The notes under the pieces were generated by a model. That model was not told where the DNA came from. It saw only the letters and a list, made by a program, of their open reading frames with translations, and searched no databases. From Cupriavidus necator (GTDB taxonomy: Bacteria > Pseudomonadota > Gammaproteobacteria > Burkholderiales > Burkholderiaceae): a stretch of 64,000 bases of DNA. Numbering within the stretch: position 1 is the stretch's first letter; each line of letters begins with the position of its first letter. Positions 3,455 to 12,514 of the stretch are shown here, piece by piece. The DNA lies in the NCBI RefSeq assembly GCF_013141915.1, contig NZ_SROX01000002.1, forward strand, positions 1 through 64,000, in the 5' to 3' direction. The translations under genes and the position numbers were made by a program.

Positions 3455-3949
3455 TCAAAGGAAGCGGTCAAGTATCTTGCGGCTGTGCTTGTCCAGCGCC
3501 ATCAGGTCGCGGATCAGGTAATGGATGCCGTGCGTGTCCGAGACCAGCAGCGTGCTGCCGGCCAGGCGCCGGATCGCCTCTTCGCCGCGCAGCACCAGGT
3601 CGGTCTGGCCGCGGTCGGTCTTCACCGTCCACACGCTGGGCGTGGCGTAGGTCGACACACTGACGATACGCTCGATCTCCGGCATGAACTCGCGCGAGGC
3701 CAGTTCCGCCTCGATCATGTCGCGCTCGGCGATCGGCAGGTCTTCCAACCGCGGGATCCATACCACCTCATGCCCGTCGGTGCTCATCATGCCAATGCCG
3801 CCCCGCGGCGCCGAGATCGGGAAGGCGCGCACCGGAACCACGCCCTCGTGGACGGTGCCGTCCTCGGCAATCAGCACCAGGCGGCCGAAAGGATTGCGGT
3901 CGAGCGTAAACACAGGGGCCGGCGCGGCGGCGGCGATGTCATTGGGCAT
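3455..3949 (-). CDS. DUF1854 family protein linked to cyanophycin metabolism
   Basis: The 164-residue soluble protein matches my recollection of the DUF1854 family, which is found next to cyanophycin synthetases in betaproteobacteria. Recognisable segments are 'FTLDRNPFGRLVLIAEDG', 'VPVRAFPISAP', 'HEVVWIPRLEDLP' and 'VKTDRGQTDLVLRGEEAIRRL' (shortened here). It has no catalytic motif, signal peptide or membrane segment. Its start (ATG 3949; the frame is open to 4084) lies inside the last 11 bases of the upstream ABC exporter gene, so the two are almost certainly co-translated. The role is unknown; a regulatory or scaffold subunit of the exporter is an inference from the overlap. Confidence 0.85.
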   Translation of the reverse strand: MPNDIAAAAPAPVFTLDRNPFGRLVLIAEDGTVHEGVVPVRAFPISAPRGGIGMMSTDGHEVVWIPRLEDLPIAERDMIEAELASREFMPEIERIVSVSTYATPSVWTVKTDRGQTDLVLRGEEAIRRLAGSTLLVSDTHGIHYLIRDLMALDKHSRKILDRFL

Positions 3950-6233
3950 GGGCGGTCTCCGGGATCTCGATGGCCTCTTCTGCGTCGTCGTCTTCGGTAT
4001 CGACATTGCGCGCCTGCGCCTGGTAAAGCTTGTAGTACGCGCCTTCGCGCAGCAGCAATTCGTCGTGGCTGCCCACTTCGACAATCTGGCCGCGGTCCAT
4101 CACCACCAGCCGGTCGGCCTTGCGCAGCGTCGACAGACGGTGCGCAATGGCAATGGTGGTACGGCCCTGCACCAGGTTGTCGAGCGCCTTCTGGATTTCC
4201 TTCTCGGTGGCGGTATCGACCGACGAGGTGGCCTCATCCATGATCAGGATGCGCGGGTTGATCAGCAGCGCGCGCGCAATCGAAATGCGCTGGCGCTCGC
4301 CGCCCGACAGCGCCTGGCCGCGTTCACCGACCAGCGAGTCATAGCCGTGCGGCAGCCGCAGGATGAACTCATGCGCGTGGGCGGCCCGCGCGGCGGCAAT
4401 GATCTCTTCACGCGTCGCGTCCGGCTTGCCATAGGCGATGTTGTCCGCGATCGTGCCGAAAAACAGGAACGGCTCCTGCAGCACCAGGCCGATATGGCGG
4501 CGGTACTCCGAAACCGGCAGCGAGCGGATATCGACACCGTCGACACGGATCGCGCCCTCTGACACATCGTAGAAGCGGCAGATCAGGTTGACCAGGGTGC
4601 TCTTGCCCGAGCCGCTGTGGCCGACCAGCCCGATCATCTCGCCCGGCGCGATCGACAGGTTCAGCCCGCGGATCACCGCGCGGTTGCCGTAGCGGAAGCC
4701 CAGGTCACTCATGTCGATGGCGCCCTCGACCCGATCCAGCCGGGCCGGCCGCGCCGGCTCCGGCACGCTCGACACATGGTCGAGGATGTCGAAGATGCGC
4801 TTGGCCCCGGCGGCGGCCTTCTGCGTCACCGAGACGATGCGGCTCATCGAATCCAGCCGCGTATAGAAGCGGCTGATATAGGTCAGGAACGCCACCAGCA
4901 CGCCCACCGTGATGGCACTGTGCGAGACCTGCCAGATGCCGAACACCCATACGATCAGCAGCCCGATCTCGGTCAGCAGCGTTACGGTCGGCGTGAACAG
5001 CGACCAGACCGCGTTGACGCGATCGTTGATCGCGAGGTTATGCTTGTTGGCTTCGCGGAAGCGCGAGACTTCGCGCTTCTCCTGGGCAAAGGCCTTGACC
5101 ACGCGGATGCCCGGGATGGTGTCAGCCAGGACGTTGGTGATTTCGGACCAGATCCGATCGATCTTCTCGAAGCCGTGGCGCAGGCGATCGCGCACCAGGT
5201 GGATCATCCACGCGATAAAGGGCAACGGCACCAGCGTCACCAGGGCGAGCCAGGGGTTGATCGACACCAGGATCGCCGCTGTCATCACGATCATCAGCAC
5301 ATCGGTGGCGAAATCCAGCAGATGCAACGACAGGAACACGCAGATGCGGTCGCTTTCTGAGCCGATGCGCGCCATCAGGTCGCCGGTGCGCTTGCCGCCG
5401 AAATATTCCAACGACAGCTTTAGCAGGTGTTCGTAGGTGGTCGTGCGCAGATCGGCGCCGATACGCTCCGATACCCGCGCCAGCAGATAGGTGCGCGCCC
5501 ATCCCAGCGACCAGGCCACCAGCGCCGCCCCGAGCAACCCGGCGAGGTAGAGGCGCACCAGGCCATAGTCAATCGGGACGCCGTTCTGGAACGGAATCAG
5601 GACCTTGTCCATCAGGGGCATGGTCAGGTATGGCGGCACCAGCGTGGCGGCGGTCGACAGCAGCGTCAGCAAGAAGCCGCCCAGGAGCGGCCAGCGGTAG
5701 GGCCGGGCAAAGCGCCAGAGCCGCAGCAGCGCCCAGGTCGACGGCGGCGTCTCGAGTTCGCGGCTGCATTGGGGACACTGTTCCTCGTCGGGCGGCAGCG
5801 GCGCCTTGCAGGTCGGACACAACACCTCTCCCGCCGCGGCGGCCGGACGCGAAGCGGCGGCGTCGCGCTGGGCCTCGAACTGGTCCGCCAGCCGCAGGGC
5901 CGCCGGATTGTAACCAAGCGTATATCGCCAGCTGGCGAGCCGGCCTGCCGGGCCGCTCAATTCCAGCGTGCCCACCCCTGCGTGATCGGTGTGCGACAGG
6001 CGTAGCGTGGGGGCGATGTTCCATTCCCGCACATTTTTTTCACCGGGGGCGCGGGCAACCATGCGCTGGTCCGTCACAACCAGCCACCCTTGGGTAAAAT
6101 GCAGCCTCGCGTCGAGGTCCAGTGCCAGTCCGGCCAAGACAGTCTCGCCGGGTCGGAGCCACGATCCGGCTTCAGCCCGCCAGGGGTCATCGGCGGCAAG
6201 GGCAGTAGGGACAGGCAGGGCGGACTGGGTCAT
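3939..6233 (-). CDS. ABC exporter half-transporter with PH-like and zinc-ribbon N-terminus, cyanophycin-associated
   Basis: The 764-residue protein has four parts. Residues 1-130 are a PH/GRAM-like domain ('GWLVVTDQRMVARAPG'). Residues 138-155 are a zinc ribbon with two Cys-x2-Cys pairs ('CPTCKAPLPPDEEQCPQC'). Residues 170-460 form a six-helix exporter domain. The C-terminal ATPase has Walker A 'GHSGSGKST' (about 536), 'LSGGERQR' (about 643), Walker B 'ILIMDEATSS' and H-loop 'IAHR'. All ATPase motifs are intact, so it should work as a homodimer in the inner membrane. It is divergent from cphA' across 235 bases and overlaps the DUF1854 gene by 11 bases. Exporters of this family co-occur with cphA; the substrate is unknown. 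The ATG at 6233 was chosen because the domain begins just after it; the frame is open to 6365. Confidence 0.88.
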   Translation of the reverse strand: MTQSALPVPTALAADDPWRAEAGSWLRPGETVLAGLALDLDARLHFTQGWLVVTDQRMVARAPGEKNVREWNIAPTLRLSHTDHAGVGTLELSGPAGRLASWRYTLGYNPAALRLADQFEAQRDAAASRPAAAAGEVLCPTCKAPLPPDEEQCPQCSRELETPPSTWALLRLWRFARPYRWPLLGGFLLTLLSTAATLVPPYLTMPLMDKVLIPFQNGVPIDYGLVRLYLAGLLGAALVAWSLGWARTYLLARVSERIGADLRTTTYEHLLKLSLEYFGGKRTGDLMARIGSESDRICVFLSLHLLDFATDVLMIVMTAAILVSINPWLALVTLVPLPFIAWMIHLVRDRLRHGFEKIDRIWSEITNVLADTIPGIRVVKAFAQEKREVSRFREANKHNLAINDRVNAVWSLFTPTVTLLTEIGLLIVWVFGIWQVSHSAITVGVLVAFLTYISRFYTRLDSMSRIVSVTQKAAAGAKRIFDILDHVSSVPEPARPARLDRVEGAIDMSDLGFRYGNRAVIRGLNLSIAPGEMIGLVGHSGSGKSTLVNLICRFYDVSEGAIRVDGVDIRSLPVSEYRRHIGLVLQEPFLFFGTIADNIAYGKPDATREEIIAAARAAHAHEFILRLPHGYDSLVGERGQALSGGERQRISIARALLINPRILIMDEATSSVDTATEKEIQKALDNLVQGRTTIAIAHRLSTLRKADRLVVMDRGQIVEVGSHDELLLREGAYYKLYQAQARNVDTEDDDAEEAIEIPETAHAQ

Positions 6234-6402
6234 GGATGGCGCGGCGTGCGTCCGGGAGTTGCGGACATTTTGAAACAATTTAGGCCGGGCACGCGCTGGC
6301 GGCCCGTGAATTCGCCCGCAGTATACATAACGATGAACATGCGGGTGGCCTGATGCGTTGCACAATCACTTTTACACCAAGAAAGTCAACCCGCTCTGTG
6401 CT

Positions 6403-6412
6403 GTAACGTTAC
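6403..6412. promoter_or_regulatory. Palindrome GTAACGTTAC in the cphA'/ABC divergent region
   Basis: This perfect 10-base palindrome lies about 57 bases before cphA'. The divergent intergenic region 6234-6468 must hold both promoters; AT-rich stretches occur at 6275-6285 and 6325-6340. An operator role is possible but unsupported beyond symmetry and position. Confidence 0.25.
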
Positions 6413-6468
6413 TGAAAGGTTAGGCTTCCATTTCTCGGGCGTTCCGCCCACTGCCTCAAGCTAATTCA

Positions 6469-9102
6469 ATGAAAAAGAAGGACATTGAGATTTTCGATGT
6501 CATGTCGCTGCGCGGCCCGAATATGTGGACATATCGGCCCGTCTTGGAGGCATGGGTCGATATCGGGGAACTGGAGGACTTTCCCTCCAACACGATTCCG
6601 GGGTTTTACGAGCGCCTGTCGGCCTGGCTGCCGTCGCTGATCGAGCATCGCTGCAGCATCGGCGAGCGCGGCGGCTTCCTGCAGCGGCTGAAGGAAGGCA
6701 CCTGGCCGGGCCATATCCTGGAACACGTGACGCTTGAGCTGCAAAACCTGGCGGGCATGCCGGGCGGCTTCGGCAAGGCACGCGAGACGCCGGTGCGCGG
6801 CGTCTACAAAGTGATCGTGCGCGCCTGGCACGAGGAAGTCACCCGCGCCGCCCTGTTCGCCGCGCGCGACCTGGTCATGGCCGCGATCGAAGACCGTCCG
6901 TACGACGTGCCGGCCACGGTGGACCACCTGCGCCGCCTGGTCGACAAGCATTGCCTGGGTCCCAGCACCGCCTGCATCGTCGACGCCGCGGATGACCGCG
7001 ACATCCCTGCGATCCGCCTGTCGGACGGCAACCTGGTGCAATTGGGCTACGGCGCGCGCCAGCGCCGCATCTGGACCGCCGAAACCGACCGCACCAGCGC
7101 CATCGCCGAAAGCATCTCGCGCGACAAGGACCTGACCAAGAGCCTGCTGGAATCCTGCGGCGTACCGGTGCCGGAAGGCCGCCTGGTCGAATCGCCGGAA
7201 GACGCCTGGGATGCCGCCGAGGACATCGGCGTGCCCGTGGTGGTGAAACCCTATGACGGCAACCATGGCCGCGGCGTGTTCACCAACCTGATGACCCGCG
7301 AAGAAGTGGAAACCGCCTACGGCGTGGCCATCGAGGAAGGCAGCGGCGTCATCGTCGAGCGCTTCATCCCCGGCAACGAGCACCGCCTGCTGGTGGTCGG
7401 CGGCCGCCTGGTCGCCGCTGCCATGGGCGAGACCGCCAGCGTGGTCGGCGACGGCAAGTCCACCATTGACGAACTGATCGAGCTGCAGATCAATTCCGAT
7501 CCGCGCCGCGGCAGCACCGAGGACCACCCGCTCAACTGCGTGCGGCTCGACTCCGCCGCGCGGCTGGAACTGAAGCGCCAGGGCATGGACGGCAGCACGG
7601 TGCCGCCGCAGGGCCGCCCCGTGCTGATCCAGCGCAACGGCAACGTCGCCTTCGACGTCACCGACCGCGTGCACCCCAGCGTCGCCGCGCATGCCGCGCT
7701 GGCCGCGCGCGTGGTCGGACTGGATATCGCCGGCGTGGATCTGGTGGCCGAGGACATCTCGCGCCCGCTGCACGAACAGCGCGGCGCCATTGTCGAAGTC
7801 AACGCCGGCCCCGGCCTGCTGATGCATATCAAGCCCGCCGAGGGCACGCCGCGCCCGGTGGGCCGCGCCATCGTCAACCACCTGTTCCCCGAGTCCGAAG
7901 ACGACCAGGGCCGCATCCCGGTGGTCGGCGTGACCGGCACCAACGGCAAGACCGTGGTGGCACGCCTGGTGGCGCGCCTGCTGCAGCTGTCGGGCAAGCA
8001 TACCGGCCTGGCCTGCAGCGATGGCCTGTTCCTGGACCGCCGCCAGGTGGAAAGCGGCGACCGGTCCAACTGGGAAGCCGCCCACCGCATCCTGATGAAC
8101 CGCGCGGTCGAGGCCGCCGTGTTCGAGAACGACAGCGGCAGCATCCTGTCCGAGGGCCTAGCCTATGACCGCTGCCAGGTCGGCGTGGTCACCAACTTCG
8201 ACCAGCCCGACCATCTCGGCGACTATTACGTCGAAGACGAAGACCGCATGTACAACGTGCTGCGCACGCAGGTCGACGTGGTGCTGCAGAATGGCGCGGC
8301 CGTGCTCAACGCGCGCGACCCACGCCTGGTGGAGATGGCCGAACTGTGCGATGGCGACGTCATCTTCTTTGGCCTGACGCCGGAGCTGCCTGCGATCGTG
8401 TCGCACCGCGCCGCGGGCAAGCGCGCGGTGTACGTGCGCGAAGGCAAGATCGTGCTGGCCAGCGGGACCAGCGAGACCGCGCTGGTGGACGTGGCCGCGG
8501 TGCCGCTGACCTATGCCGGCCGCGTCGCGTTCCAGGTCGAGAATGTGCTGGCCGCCGTGGCCGCCGGCTGGGCGCTGGGCATCTCCAATGACCTGATCCG
8601 CGCCGGCGTGGTGACCTTCGATGTCGGCCAGGTCGACGTGCCGGGCCGGTTTACGCTGTTCGAGCGCAACGGTGCCACGGTGGTGATCGACGACGCCCAC
8701 AACGCCCCCGCGCTGGAAGCGCTGGCGACCGCGCTGGACCGCTTCCCGGCCGAGCGCCGCATGGTGGTCTACGGCGCCGGCGCGCAGCGCCGCGACGAAG
8801 ACCTGGTGCGCCAGGGCAAGGCCCTGGGCCAGCATTTCGACCGCGTGTTCCTGTGCGAGGACCGCAGCGTCAAGCGCGCCCTGGCCGACGCCGAGGCGCG
8901 CGCGCTGCTCAAGCAGGGCCTGTACGAAGGCCGGCGCGTGACCAAGATCATCGACGAAGGCACGCGCGCCAGCGCCATCGAAACCGCCCTGAGCCAACTG
9001 GTACCGGGCGACCTGCTGGTGTTGCAGTGCGACGAGGCTGCTACCGGCGCGACCGTCGACCTGGTGCACCACTGGATGGGCCAGCCTGCCCGCCGCGCCT
9101 GA
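6469..9102 (+). CDS. cphA': Cyanophycin synthetase-like protein CphA' (second synthetase, diverged)
   Basis: The 877-residue protein has the three-domain layout of cyanophycin synthetase, which links Asp and Arg into a storage polymer in the cytoplasm. The N domain is well kept: 'IPGFYERL', 'RGGFLQRLKEGTW' and 'GHILEHVTLELQ' (H82, E85, H86). The ATP-grasp domain has 'VVVKPYDGNHGRG' near 258-270 but lacks the usual 'ANLSTGG' loop, reading 'QRNGNVAFDVTD' at 388-399. The Mur-ligase-like domain has the P-loop 'GVTGTNGKT' at about 487, but the normal 'SARGGLL' is 'NDSGSIL' (554-560) and 'DYAHNP' is 'DDAHNAP'. A full two-step synthesis by this protein alone is therefore doubtful. Start ATG 6469; no strong RBS. 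cphA follows after 43 bases. Confidence 0.93.
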   Translation: MKKKDIEIFDVMSLRGPNMWTYRPVLEAWVDIGELEDFPSNTIPGFYERLSAWLPSLIEHRCSIGERGGFLQRLKEGTWPGHILEHVTLELQNLAGMPGGFGKARETPVRGVYKVIVRAWHEEVTRAALFAARDLVMAAIEDRPYDVPATVDHLRRLVDKHCLGPSTACIVDAADDRDIPAIRLSDGNLVQLGYGARQRRIWTAETDRTSAIAESISRDKDLTKSLLESCGVPVPEGRLVESPEDAWDAAEDIGVPVVVKPYDGNHGRGVFTNLMTREEVETAYGVAIEEGSGVIVERFIPGNEHRLLVVGGRLVAAAMGETASVVGDGKSTIDELIELQINSDPRRGSTEDHPLNCVRLDSAARLELKRQGMDGSTVPPQGRPVLIQRNGNVAFDVTDRVHPSVAAHAALAARVVGLDIAGVDLVAEDISRPLHEQRGAIVEVNAGPGLLMHIKPAEGTPRPVGRAIVNHLFPESEDDQGRIPVVGVTGTNGKTVVARLVARLLQLSGKHTGLACSDGLFLDRRQVESGDRSNWEAAHRILMNRAVEAAVFENDSGSILSEGLAYDRCQVGVVTNFDQPDHLGDYYVEDEDRMYNVLRTQVDVVLQNGAAVLNARDPRLVEMAELCDGDVIFFGLTPELPAIVSHRAAGKRAVYVREGKIVLASGTSETALVDVAAVPLTYAGRVAFQVENVLAAVAAGWALGISNDLIRAGVVTFDVGQVDVPGRFTLFERNGATVVIDDAHNAPALEALATALDRFPAERRMVVYGAGAQRRDEDLVRQGKALGQHFDRVFLCEDRSVKRALADAEARALLKQGLYEGRRVTKIIDEGTRASAIETALSQLVPGDLLVLQCDEAATGATVDLVHHWMGQPARRA

Positions 9103-9145
9103 CGCCCCCAGCCCAACCGCGCATAGAAGACACGGAAACCGTTCT

Positions 9146-11716
9146 ATGGAAGTCTCCCGTATCCGGGCCCTGCGGGGCCCGAACCTGTGGTGCCGCCACA
9201 CCGCCATCGAGGCGATCGTGGCCTGCCAGGACACCGCCAACATGCTGTCGGCGCTGCCCGGCTTTGAAGACCGGCTGCGCGCGCGCTTCCCCGAAATCGG
9301 GCCGCTGCGCCCCGACGAGGAATCGGGCGAGCTGTCGCTGGCCCACGTGCTCGAAGTCACGGCGCTGCGCCTGCAAGCGGCCGCCGGCTGCCCGGTGACG
9401 TTCAGCCGCACCGCGCAGACGGTCGAGCCCGGCATCTACCAGGTGATCGTGCAGTACAGCGAGGAAGAAGTCGGCCGGCTCGCCTTCGAGCTTGCCGAAG
9501 CGCTGTGCAACGCGGCCCGCCACGACACCGCGTTCGACCTGGCCGACGCGCTGCACCGCCTGCGCGAGCTCGACGAGGACGTGCGCCTGGGGCCGAGCAC
9601 AGGCTCCATCGTCTACGCGGCGGTCGCGCGCGGCATCCCGTACCGGCGCCTGACGCAGGGCTCGATGGTGCAGTTCGGCTGGGGCAGCAAGCAGCGCCGC
9701 ATCCAGGCTGCCGAGACCGACCGTACCAGCGCCGTGGCCGAGTCGATCGCTCAGGACAAGGAACTGACCAAGACCCTGCTGCACGCCGCCGGCGTGCCGG
9801 TGCCGCTGGGCCGCTCGGTGCGCAGTGCCGAAGAGGCCTGGGCCGCGGCGCAGGAAATCGACGCGCCGGTGGTGGTCAAGCCCCGCGACGGCAACCAGGG
9901 CAAGGGCGTGGCGGTGCGCATCCGCACCCGCGAGGAAGTAATGACCGCCTACGAGGTGGCCTCGGACATCAGCTCGGACGTGATCGTCGAGCGCTATATC
10001 CCGGGCCACGATTTCCGCCTGCTGGTGGTCGGCAAGCAACTGGTCGCGGCCGCGCGCCGCGATCCCCCCCAAGTCATCGGCGACGGCATGCATACCGTGC
10101 GCCAGCTGGTCGAGGAAGTGAACCGCGACCCGCGCCGCGGCGAAGGCCATGCCACCTCGCTGACCAAGATCCGCTTTGACGACATCGCGCTGGCGACGCT
10201 CGCCAAGCAGAACCTGACCGCCGATTCCGTGCCCGCCAACGGCACCCGCGTGGTGCTGCGCAACAACGCCAACCTGTCCACCGGCGGCAGCGCCACCGAC
10301 GTGACCGACGACGTCCACCCCGACATCGCCGCGCGCGCTGTCGCGGCCGCGCAGATGGTGGGCCTGGACATCGCCGGCGTCGACGCGGTCTGTGAAACCA
10401 TGCTCAAGCCGTTCGAGGAACAGGCCGGCGGCATCGTCGAAGTCAACGCCGCGCCGGGCCTGCGCATGCACCTGCAGCCGTCCTACGGCAAGGGCCGCGC
10501 GGTCGGCGAGGCCATCGTCTCGACCATGTTTGCCGACGGCGACGACGGCCGCATCCCGGTGGTGGCGGTCTCGGGCACCAACGGCAAGACCACCACGGTG
10601 CGGCTGATCACCCATATCATGGCCAGCAGCGGCTTGCGCATGGGCATGACCGGCACCGACGGCGTCTATATCCAGGGCGAGCGCATCGATACCGGCGACT
10701 GCAGCGGCCCGCGCAGCGCGCGCAATGTGCTGCTGCACCCCGACGTGGACGCCGCCGTGTTCGAGACCGCGCGCGGCGGCCTGCTGCGCGAGGGCCTGGC
10801 CTTTGACCGCTGCGATGTGGCGGTGGTGACCAACGTCGGTGAAGGCGACCACCTCGGCCTGTCCTACATCAACTCGGTGGAAGACCTGGCAGTGCTCAAG
10901 AGCGTGATCGTGCAGAACGTGGCGCCGCACGGCATGGCCGTGCTCAACGCCGCCGATCCGATGGTGGTGCGCATGGCCGACGCCTGCCCCGGCAGCGTCA
11001 CCTTCTTCGCGCACGACCCCGACCAGCCGGCCATGGCCACGCACCGCGCGCAGGGCAAGCGCGTGGTGTTCGTCGACGGCGCCGACATCGTCGCCGCGGA
11101 GGGCGACGCCGAAGTGCGCATCGCGCTGGCCGAGATCCCGCTGACGCGCAACGGCACCATCGGCTTCCAGGTCGAGAACGCGATGTCGTCGATCGCCGCC
11201 GCGTGGGCGCTGGGCGTCGACTGGTCGGTGATCCGTCGCGGGCTGGCCACCTTCGTCAACGATGCGCAGACCGCGCCCGGACGCTTCAATGTGTTCGACT
11301 ACCGCGGCGCCACGCTGATCGCCGACTATGGCCACAACCCGGATGCGATCCTGGCGCTGTGCAACGCGATCCAATCCATTCCGGCCAGGCGGCGGGTGGT
11401 GGTGATCAGCGGCGCGGGCGACCGCCGCGACGACGACATCCGCCGCCAGACCCAGATCCTGGGCGGCGTGTTCGATGAAGTTGTGCTGTACCAGGACCAG
11501 TGCCAGCGCGGCCGCGCCGACGGCGAGGTGCTGGCGCTGCTGCGCGAAGGCCTGCAGGGCGCGCAACGCGCCAGCCAGGTCGAGGAAATCCACGGCGAGT
11601 TCCTCGCCATCGATACCGCGCTGTCGCACCTGCAGCCGGGCGACCTGTGCCTGGTCCTGGTGGACCAGGTGGAAGAGGCGCTGGGGCATATCGCCGGTCG
11701 CATCGCGCAGGGGTAA
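9146..11716 (+). CDS. cphA: Cyanophycin synthetase CphA
   Basis: The 856-residue enzyme builds cyanophycin (multi-L-arginyl-poly-L-aspartate) by ATP-dependent addition of Asp then Arg. The ATP-grasp domain has 'VVVKPRDGNQGKG' and intact 'ANLSTGG' (375-381). The Mur-ligase-like domain has 'AVSGTNGKTTTVRL', 'TARGGLL' (541-547) and 'DYGHNPD' (727-733). Unlike CphA', its N domain has diverged: the segment corresponding to the His-x2-Glu-His motif reads 'HVLEVTALRLQ' (H67, E70, V71), losing the second His, and the GGF segment before it is missing. It lies 43 bases after cphA' in the same direction, probably as one operon ending at the terminator at 11802-11834. Start ATG 9146. Confidence 0.95.
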   Translation: MEVSRIRALRGPNLWCRHTAIEAIVACQDTANMLSALPGFEDRLRARFPEIGPLRPDEESGELSLAHVLEVTALRLQAAAGCPVTFSRTAQTVEPGIYQVIVQYSEEEVGRLAFELAEALCNAARHDTAFDLADALHRLRELDEDVRLGPSTGSIVYAAVARGIPYRRLTQGSMVQFGWGSKQRRIQAAETDRTSAVAESIAQDKELTKTLLHAAGVPVPLGRSVRSAEEAWAAAQEIDAPVVVKPRDGNQGKGVAVRIRTREEVMTAYEVASDISSDVIVERYIPGHDFRLLVVGKQLVAAARRDPPQVIGDGMHTVRQLVEEVNRDPRRGEGHATSLTKIRFDDIALATLAKQNLTADSVPANGTRVVLRNNANLSTGGSATDVTDDVHPDIAARAVAAAQMVGLDIAGVDAVCETMLKPFEEQAGGIVEVNAAPGLRMHLQPSYGKGRAVGEAIVSTMFADGDDGRIPVVAVSGTNGKTTTVRLITHIMASSGLRMGMTGTDGVYIQGERIDTGDCSGPRSARNVLLHPDVDAAVFETARGGLLREGLAFDRCDVAVVTNVGEGDHLGLSYINSVEDLAVLKSVIVQNVAPHGMAVLNAADPMVVRMADACPGSVTFFAHDPDQPAMATHRAQGKRVVFVDGADIVAAEGDAEVRIALAEIPLTRNGTIGFQVENAMSSIAAAWALGVDWSVIRRGLATFVNDAQTAPGRFNVFDYRGATLIADYGHNPDAILALCNAIQSIPARRRVVVISGAGDRRDDDIRRQTQILGGVFDEVVLYQDQCQRGRADGEVLALLREGLQGAQRASQVEEIHGEFLAIDTALSHLQPGDLCLVLVDQVEEALGHIAGRIAQG

Positions 11717-11731
11717 GTCCTTCCGCAGTGC

Positions 11732-11779
11732 CGCGGGGCGCTCCCCTCTCCCATAAATGGGAGAGGGGAGCGCCCCGCG
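11732..11779. repeat. Palindromic intergenic repeat, copy A (22-bp arms)
   Basis: A perfect inverted repeat with 22-base arms and a TAAA loop. The inner part CTCCCCTCTCCCA/TGGGAGAGGGGAG belongs to the same family as copies at 27328, 27409, 46690 and 49963. It lies between the end of cphA and its terminator. Confidence 0.85.
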
Positions 11780-11801
11780 CAAGGTGAACTTCCTCAGCAA
11801 C

Positions 11802-11834
11802 AAAAAAGCCGGTTCCAGGGAACCGGCTTTTTTT
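11802..11834. terminator. Bidirectional terminator between cphA and the amino-acid permease gene
   Basis: AAAAAAGCCGGTT and AACCGGCTTTTTTT form a stem with a 6-base loop, with A-run and T-run flanks, so it can stop transcription from both convergent sides. Confidence 0.9.
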
Positions 11835-11854
11835 GCGCACAGGCAAGCTTGATC

Positions 11855-12514
11855 TCAATGCCTTCCCGGCAACGACAACCTCCGCTCCAGCCTGTGCTGC
11901 AGCCCGGACAACCCCGTGCTCAACACCCAGTAGATCACCGCCACCGCCAGGTACAGCGGCAACGGCTGGTACGTCGCCGCGATCACCTCCTGCGCGGTGC
12001 GCAGCAACTCCGTCACGGTAATCACCGACACCAGCGAGGTATCCTTGATCAGGCTGATCAGGCTGTTCGACAGGCTCGGCACCGCCAGCCGCAGCGCCTG
12101 CGGGCCCACCACATAGCGTAGCGCCTGTGCCGGCGTCAACCCCAGGCTGTATGCGGCCAGCCATTGGCCGCGCGCCACGCCGACGATGGCGCCGCGCATG
12201 CTTTCCGACAGGTACGCCCCCACATTCAGGCTCAGCGTCAGCACGCCGGCCGGGGTGGGCTCCAGCGCGATGCCAACGCCCGGCAGCCCGTAGTACACCA
12301 CAAAGATCTGCACCAGCAGCGGCGTGCCGCGCATGACGCTGACATAGGAGCGCGCCACCGCCTTGAGCGCGCGGCTGTGGCTGATGCCCATCAGCGCCAC
12401 CACGGTGCCTATCATCAGCCCGAACAGCATCGACCACAATGCAAACTTGATGGTCAGCAGCGTGCCCTGCAACAGCACGGGCAGGGAATCGATGACGAGC
12501 TGGAGAGCGGACAT
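11855..12514 (-). CDS. Amino-acid ABC transporter permease (His/Glu/cystine family)
   Basis: The 219-residue inner-membrane protein is a polar amino-acid permease of the HisM/TcyL type. It has about five hydrophobic segments, an 'RGTPLLVQIF' segment near residue 65 and the EAA-loop region 'LRYVVGPQALRLAVPSLSN'. The ATG at 12514 fits the family's usual N-terminus; the frame stays open to 12673 across non-protein-like sequence. It follows the cystine-type binding-protein gene after 110 bases on the same strand. No ATPase gene is nearby, so the transporter must borrow one from elsewhere or the operon has lost it. Confidence 0.9.
   Translation of the reverse strand: MSALQLVIDSLPVLLQGTLLTIKFALWSMLFGLMIGTVVALMGISHSRALKAVARSYVSVMRGTPLLVQIFVVYYGLPGVGIALEPTPAGVLTLSLNVGAYLSESMRGAIVGVARGQWLAAYSLGLTPAQALRYVVGPQALRLAVPSLSNSLISLIKDTSLVSVITVTELLRTAQEVIAATYQPLPLYLAVAVIYWVLSTGLSGLQHRLERRLSLPGRH

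Follow-up and report, generated by a model that had tools for sequence, protein, structure and literature searches.

Cyanophycin is a nitrogen-storage polymer built from aspartate and arginine. This report concerns two adjacent genes, cphA' and cphA, in a stretch of 64,000 nucleotides of Cupriavidus necator DNA (NCBI RefSeq assembly GCF_013141915.1, contig NZ_SROX01000002.1, positions 1 to 64,000 of the forward strand; hereafter the window). Their products are both relatives of the cyanophycin synthetase CphA1 and retain different active sites, and the pair is probably best understood as one synthetase made of two subunits.

Among the closest described systems is SuCphA1 of Synechocystis UTEX2470 (PDB 7LG5, 7TXV), a primer-independent enzyme whose N, G and M domains are arranged in the same order as in the Cupriavidus proteins and in which one chain holds all three sites. 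The Cx19HxxEH motif of its N domain was reported to have slow endo-cyanophycinase activity and to generate primers (Sharon et al. 2022, PMC9262961); the hidden primer-making hydrolase named in a first-pass annotation of the window is real in this enzyme. According to the same work, either the isolated N domain or a SuCphA1 whose G and M sites were inactivated confers primer-free synthesis in trans on TmCphA1, the primer-dependent enzyme of Tatumella (PDB 7LGN), which is described there as devoid of the N-domain site. An engineered SuCphA1 heterodimer, N-G+M+/N+G-M-, was active with primer, and its primer-free activity was somewhat below that of the version carrying all sites on one protomer (PMC9262961). 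The residence of both activities on one enzyme means that their balance cannot be set by expression (PMC9262961). A further relative, CphA2 (PDB 7TA5, 8FXI), has lost P-loopM and the M lid (PMC9427784) and is described as lacking the N-domain motif (PMC9262961).

Loci with two cphA copies have been encountered before. The 'Group 1' cluster of activated-sludge bacteria comprises two cphA genes and an ATP-binding cassette (ABC) transporter without cphB (PMC10687191), and two neighbouring copies in Sideroxydans were called CphA1 and CphA2 (PMC5178258). The account of the 'Group 1' cluster deals with gene order, expression and flanking insertion sequence elements and is not known to describe an active-site split (PMC10687191); the cluster is presumably the same locus as the Cupriavidus pair. 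A search of the open-access literature, with subscription papers and preprints outside its range and no claim of priority attached, found no report of reciprocal site loss.

Distribution of active sites over the two proteins

The two genes are free of internal stop codons, lie on the forward strand and are separated by 43 nucleotides; a scan of positions 6290-11900 for sigma-70 promoters found none. Motifs were placed by a three-way alignment of CphA', CphA and SuCphA1, and residue numbers are those of SuCphA1 unless stated otherwise. The features are as follows, all on the forward strand.

6469..9102, +: cphA', 877 amino acids, a degenerate paralogue of CphA1 whose N-domain hydrolase site is intact (TIGR02068, 903 bits for a cut-off of 850).
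6646..6729, +: N-domain zinc-hydrolase site of CphA'; H60, C62, R73, H82, E85 and H86 correspond to SuCphA1 H57, C59, R70, H79, E82 and H83.
7255..7275, +: P-loopG of CphA', DGNHGRG; His266 (SuCphA1 His267) retained, His in 147/158 relatives and lost in the 11 read from one family, f129.
7630..7650, +: QRNGNVA of CphA'; the portion of the Asp-recognition loop NLSTGG that contains Ser396 is deleted, and the Ser396 position is empty in 158/158.
7807..7827, +: GPGLLMH of CphA'; Leu at the position of Asp-binding Arg458, Arg in 0/158.
8122..8148, +: FENDSGSIL of CphA' in place of the Mur-ligase ARGG segment; Arg561 lost, Arg in 0/158.
8689..9099, +: M lid region of CphA', DDAHNAP onward; present in Cupriavidus and missing from most other lineages (158 relatives: 45 with a lid, 1 with a partial lid, 112 without).
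9146..11716, +: cphA, 856 amino acids, putative polymerising subunit; G and M motifs complete save His267 to Gln, N-domain site lost.
9302..9358, +: N-domain remnant of CphA; shortened Cys loop, then AHVLEV.
9887..9907, +: P-loopG of CphA, DGNQGKG; Gln251 at the position of catalytic His267 (Gln in 150, His in 6 of 156 covered).
10265..10288, +: Asp-recognition loop of CphA, NANLSTGG; intact, Ser396 in 156/156 covered.

Both proteins are full-length CphA1 relatives, with 7WAC and 7LG5 as best solved relatives and scores above the NCBIfam TIGR02068 cut-off, and CphA carries N, G and M domains over its full length. A 920-residue open frame also runs antisense to cphA (window 9041-11803, minus strand) and is probably an effect of high G+C.

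CphA' belongs to the CphA1s by sequence relationship and by fold. Its AlphaFold model (36 sequences; mean predicted local distance difference test score, pLDDT, 87.5) ranks CphA1 first, with a template modelling (TM) score, by query length, of 0.88 to TeCphA1 (7WAE) and of 0.52-0.56 to CphA2. Its N domain carries GHILEHV at residues 81-87 of the protein and the complete Cx19HxxEH including its cysteine, together with the equivalents of His57 and Arg70, so that the six key residues are identical to those of SuCphA1. The Asp-recognition residues of the G domain are missing: ATANLSTGG of SuCphA1 aligns with QRNGNVA, and Asp-binding Arg323 and Arg458 are replaced by Gly and Leu, while the ATP ligands are retained. 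In the M domain LETARGGIL aligns with FENDSGSIL and DYAHNP with DDAHNAP; the window protein has the lid and lacks Arg561. It reads PDHLG in the region of D585 and H586, residues present in 63/125 and 56/125 CphA' of a smaller sequence set. An assignment of CphA' to CphA2 was considered and is not supported, in view of the N motif and of the fold ranking, CphA2 residues having been compared by description only; the Cupriavidus protein moreover has the P-loopM and lid that CphA2, as defined in PMC9262961 and PMC9427784, lacks.

CphA presents the opposite picture. AHVLEV (residues 66-71 of the protein) follows a shortened Cys loop, and besides the second histidine, Cys59, His57, Arg70 and much of the intervening loop are gone. 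NANLSTGG, FETARGGLL and DYGHNPD are present, as are the ATP- and Asp-binding residues K220, K261, R309, R323, N394, S396, D431, E450 and R458, and CphA is identical to SuCphA1 at the G and M residues checked, except at His267. All four solved CphA1s that were aligned have His there, as does CphA'; CphA has Gln. TmCphA1, which shares with CphA the absence of the N-domain site, was studied as a single enzyme and has His267, whereas CphA mostly has Gln267 and is accompanied by CphA' wherever the upstream DNA was covered.

The first-pass annotation, made from the sequence alone, had proposed this complementary loss of motifs, and both reading frames and every motif that it named are present in the alignment with SuCphA1. 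Its description of CphA' (GHILEHV kept, the ANLSTGG loop and ARGG segment lost, DDAHNAP for DYAHNP) stands unchanged, except that the N site extends beyond H82, E85 and H86 to Cys62, which it did not mention. For CphA it had recorded the loss of the second histidine, which is only part of a wider loss, and the preservation of the catalytic motifs, which applies to the Asp loop, ARGG and DYGHNPD and fails at His267.

Conservation of the split among relatives

Named genomes were scanned with the CphA' alignment and the best 80 loci were used, including loci from Cupriavidus, Achromobacter, Acidovorax, Massilia, Duganella, Janthinobacterium, Herbaspirillum, Thiobacillus, Gallionella, Sideroxydans and Polaromonas. 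In 80/80 of these best loci, cphA is found immediately 3' of cphA' on the same strand, with a median gap of 41 nucleotides (range -1 to 195). Named loci, same-genus loci and further genome regions were pooled into 162 CphA' and 162 CphA rows, window included; three refetched loci, locus L044, the window's duplicate locus and the loci from the own-genome search and from the Burkholderiales follow-up reading were left out. Four genomes had entered twice, hence a recount on 158 distinct rows of each protein. One genome has its cphA in two pieces, and most same-genus cphA run off the end of the fetched locus, which lowers the numbers toward the C-terminus (127 full-length, 156 covered at the G residues).

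The range of CphA' covers Cupriavidus, many families of its order and one family (f129) of another order of the same class. A full CphA' occurs in 34 of 35 further genomes of the genus, the remaining one being a 54% complete assembly. The home genome has two close CphA homologues only, the next matches to CphA having E values of 4.8e-6 or weaker, and the 26 matching records of a plasmid collection all fall below 60% identity.

H57, C59, R70, H79, E82 and H83 are all kept in 158/158 distinct CphA', and the full Cx19HxxEH is found in 0/127 full-length CphA. The six residues never vary in the 162 CphA' rows, in which 20 of the 159 N-domain positions show the SuCphA1 residue without exception (hypergeometric p 1.9e-6, indicative since the sequences are related). 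Conversely, S396 is absent and R458 and R561 are replaced in 158/158 CphA', and R323 is replaced in 156 (one gap, one Arg), whereas R323, N394 and S396 are present in 156/156 covered CphA. The Asp- and Arg-adding residues are retained in CphA wherever covered, except His267 and, in 22/129, Ser for Thr522. K220, K261, H267, R309, D431 and E450 are all retained in 147/158 CphA'. P-loopM is kept in 61 and lost in 97 of the 158, and the M lid never occurs without it. Lid-less CphA' stop close to the Mcore/Mlid boundary (723/724 in TeCphA1), at SuCphA1 positions 725-738 (5th-95th percentile), and Mcore is at least 92% filled in every CphA' row. Such an ending fits a scaffold role; Mcore is reported to help build the TeCphA1 tetramer (PMC9427784).

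The genes of the pair occur in 12 of 36 f129 genomes, and 11 pairs were read (L152, L155, L156, L199-L206). The G site of CphA' is broken in 11/11, by H267R in nine, by H267L with E450A in one and by several changes in one; P-loopM and R561 are gone and the N site is whole in all eleven, the members being related and the independent events therefore few. In one further genome (G412), CphA' has lost nearly its whole G-omega module with an intact N site. The broken G site beside a whole N site in f129 points to the N site as the part of CphA' that selection preserves. The partner CphA has Q267 in six of these pairs and H267 in five, and the six combinations of a Q267 CphA with a broken CphA' G site indicate that the Q267 CphA is probably a working ligase unaided by the G site of CphA'. 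They also led us to reject, as a main interpretation, a dead G site in CphA supplied by CphA'. A composite G site formed by G-omega swapping was rejected as well, R323 and R458 of the CphA' core being gone too.

Constraint crosses between the proteins by domain, in identity and in the ratio of nonsynonymous to synonymous polymorphism (pN/pS). Among 73 representatives below 85% CphA identity (2628 pairs), the mean identities of CphA and CphA' are.593 and.635 for N,.722 and.696 for Gcore and lid,.705 and.533 for G-omega and.687 and.479 for Mcore. In 11 Cupriavidus, pN/pS is.264 and.173 for N,.128 and.175 for G and.212 and.322 for M, respectively; the CphA'/CphA ratio excludes 1 for M (1.16-1.96) and includes it for G. 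In a quick maximum-likelihood tree of 122 rows, a supported branch separates each of three groups from the rest: the CphA', the CphA, and the lone CphA1s together with SuCphA1. The tree is unrooted, with Shimodaira-Hasegawa-like approximate likelihood ratio (SH-aLRT) support only, some long branches and one lone genome present twice; it suggests that each of the two lineages may have a single origin and that both travelled together.

Lone-type CphA1s served as control: in 19 of 21 distinct ones all the N, G and M residues examined are intact, the other two being a distant sequence (G633, 34%) and an extra CphA1 (C59S, H79R, H267Q) of genome G399. The latter genome bears the pair and also this third, lone-type CphA1, with its broken N site and H267Q, beside a cyanophycinase (L167, G399:C23:420500-428500). 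At nine lone-type loci (L138, L141, L157, L159, L162, L163, L166, L168, L170) cphA1 adjoins a second reading frame of about 440-660 residues, some cut by the locus end, that matches the M domain only and has the P-loop Lys, the ARGG Arg and the DH pair; it is possibly a stand-alone Mur-ligase-like partner, which would be another division of labour. Two loci of a further genome (L192 and L193, G168) contain additional frames of about 590-640 residues, 30-36% identical to the CphA' G domain region.

Neighbouring genes and cyanophycinase

Two genes diverge from the pair.

3939..6233, -: divergent ABC transporter, NCBIfam NF052233 'cyanophycin metabolism-associated ABC transporter' (1453 bits, cut-off 880); start codon chosen by inspection.
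3455..3949, -: DUF1854 protein, NCBIfam NF052234 'cyanophycin metabolism-associated'; with the inspected start it overlaps the end of the transporter gene.

The transporter has a long stretch ahead of its membrane domain with a CPTC...CPQC zinc-ribbon-like part, and six of its relatives match NF052233 only from about position 150 onward. The AlphaFold model of the DUF1854 protein has a mean pLDDT of 91.5, and Foldseek gave no confident fold match for it in the PDB (best E 7.6e-3, TM 0.25).

Among the best 80 named loci the transporter is in the flank in 78, and DUF1854 as well in 72; L116 and L120 have neither in their flanks, and six of the eight loci devoid of DUF1854 still have the transporter. 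Neither gene was found at 22 lone-type loci (20 genomes, flanks of about 1.5-4 kb). In a set of 399 Burkholderiales genomes, CphA-family matches at E 1e-100 are present in 146, of which eight, all read at sequence level, have a lone CphA1. About 40 of the 138 pair genomes were read likewise, and elsewhere the second match was assigned to CphA' by its score. Single or split matches are explained by contig ends (G065, G336), by the G-omega deletion of CphA' (G412) or by a cphA in two frames (G046). The transporter is present in 138/138 pair genomes and in 0 of the 261 remaining of the 399 Burkholderiales genomes scanned.

Cyanophycinase (TIGR02069 above its cut-off) occurs in 12/138 pair genomes versus 8/8 lone-CphA1 genomes; an earlier, partly overlapping sample gave 2/20 versus 6/6. 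One of the three cyanophycinases of G399 is the one beside its extra lone-type CphA1. This scarcity recalls a published survey in which 2.8% of 903 beta-proteobacterial cphA1 genomes had a cyanophycinase, a result called unanticipated and for which unknown isozymes were suggested (PMC10206079).

A putative two-subunit synthetase and its alternatives

We consider that CphA' and CphA form a two-subunit cyanophycin synthetase, with CphA as the polymerising subunit and CphA' as the source of the cleavage that yields primers, and give this interpretation a probability of about two in three. Duplication of a CphA1 followed by reciprocal loss would have turned the two proteins into subunits of one synthetase. 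The G domain of CphA would add aspartate to the chain end and its M domain arginine; the endo-cyanophycinase site in the N domain of CphA' would cut the first CphA chains into short primers that CphA then elongates, and the retained Gcore and Mcore of CphA' would act as the scaffold on which it assembles with CphA. Conserved residues strongly support that the active sites are divided between the two proteins. Judging by these residues, CphA' very likely no longer adds arginine and, its Asp pocket being gone, probably no longer adds aspartate, while the Gln for catalytic His267 in CphA is probably tolerated and CphA probably needs no contribution from the G site of CphA'. The engineered N-G+M+/N+G-M- heterodimer (PMC9262961) has the same distribution of sites between protomers as CphA and CphA'; it consists of man-made point mutants, whereas the Cupriavidus pair is natural, conserved and structurally eroded. 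With the sites spread over two chains, the balance of building and cutting could be set by expression. The priming by CphA' and polymerisation by CphA suggested in the first-pass annotation thus gain support as a division of sites, from the counts of 158/158 and 0/127 for the N site, from the 80/80 adjacency and from the crossed constraint. As to the role of the cleavage, we infer hydrolysis by CphA', physical assembly and cutting for priming; primer making fits best, and turnover in genomes devoid of cyanophycinase fits too.

Several observations weigh against this interpretation. H267, R309 and the ATP ligands, kept in 147/158 CphA', would be superfluous in a protein that was only a scaffold. 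In CphA, Gln occupies a position at which substitution by Ala inactivates or weakens solved CphA1s (TeCphA1, SuCphA1; PMC9262961, PMC9427784). Residue 267 of CphA is His in 5/11 pairs with a broken CphA' G site versus 1 of the other 145 covered, which may reflect descent or some remaining function of the CphA' G domain. The N-domain pN/pS ratio (0.65, 95% interval 0.41-1.06) is not significant alone. The N site is broken in the third CphA1 of G399, which has no dedicated CphA' next to it, and TmCphA1 lacks the site too; loss of the N site thus requires no partner by itself. Finally, the homologues of R. eutropha H16 were reported to give no cyanophycin on overexpression in the host or expression in E. 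coli (review PMC8560796, citing Adames et al. 2013). If each gene was expressed singly, this outcome is as our interpretation predicts; joint expression would instead make it evidence against the interpretation or a hint of a soluble product.

A broader scheme, which we consider rather unlikely, assigns to Betaproteobacteria their own four-gene system, with building (CphA) and cutting (CphA') on separate chains and a balance set by expression; CphA' would be both the missing cyanophycinase and the primer maker, and the transporter and DUF1854 protein would handle the cut oligomers, perhaps exporting them. Somewhat less probable is a CphA' devoted mainly to turnover, a separately tunable endo-cyanophycinase that replaces the missing enzyme and for which priming is secondary. 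The contrast of 12/138 with 8/8 genomes, the cyanophycinase placed beside the extra lone-type CphA1 of G399 and the 2.8% of the published survey (PMC10206079) would all be expected from it. The known N-domain activity is nevertheless described as slow (PMC9262961), adjacent genes with a short gap favour simultaneous expression, a different hydrolase could be encoded elsewhere, and 12 pair genomes have a cyanophycinase match.

It is unlikely, and a little more so, that the pair and the ABC transporter produce an Asp-Arg oligomer, short or altered, for export and not for storage. The exact co-occurrence with an exporter-like (MsbA-related) transporter (138/138 versus 0/261; 78 of the best 80 named loci), the rarity of cyanophycinase in pair genomes and the absence of cyanophycin from the H16 genes (PMC8560796) speak for such a product. 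Substrate and direction of this transporter are putative, though, CphA retains the residues for adding both amino acids, a negative expression result can have many causes, and L116 and L120 have the pair with no transporter in their flanks. Still less probable is a working but altered G domain in CphA', for example one joining beta-Asp-Arg dipeptides like CphA2. The kept ATP ligands, H267 and R309, the absence of P-loopM and Mlid from most CphA' as from CphA2 (PMC9427784) and the excess of His267 in CphA beside broken G sites would suit it, but S396 and R458 are lost throughout and R323 nearly so, f129 maintains the pair with a broken G site, and CphA2 is described as having no N motif (PMC9262961). 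A decaying, non-functional relic in Cupriavidus, which the H16 result (PMC8560796) and the many catalytic losses of CphA' might evoke, is very improbable in view of pN/pS values of.13 to.38 in every domain of both genes, the invariant N site, the lack of stops and a full-length CphA' in 34/35 genomes of the genus.

As two subunits of one synthetase, CphA' and CphA would be the natural and conserved counterpart of an arrangement engineered in the laboratory. The pair also suggests that many CphA sequences lacking the N-domain motif do not represent primer-dependent enzymes but one half of an enzyme. It predicts that cphA or cphA' expressed alone would yield little polymer, a point relevant to cyanophycin production and to earlier negative results. 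The question raised by the few beta-proteobacterial cphA1 genomes with a recognisable cyanophycinase (PMC10206079) becomes directly testable, and the partnership of the two proteins may help to explain why many such bacteria lack the usual polymer-degrading enzyme.

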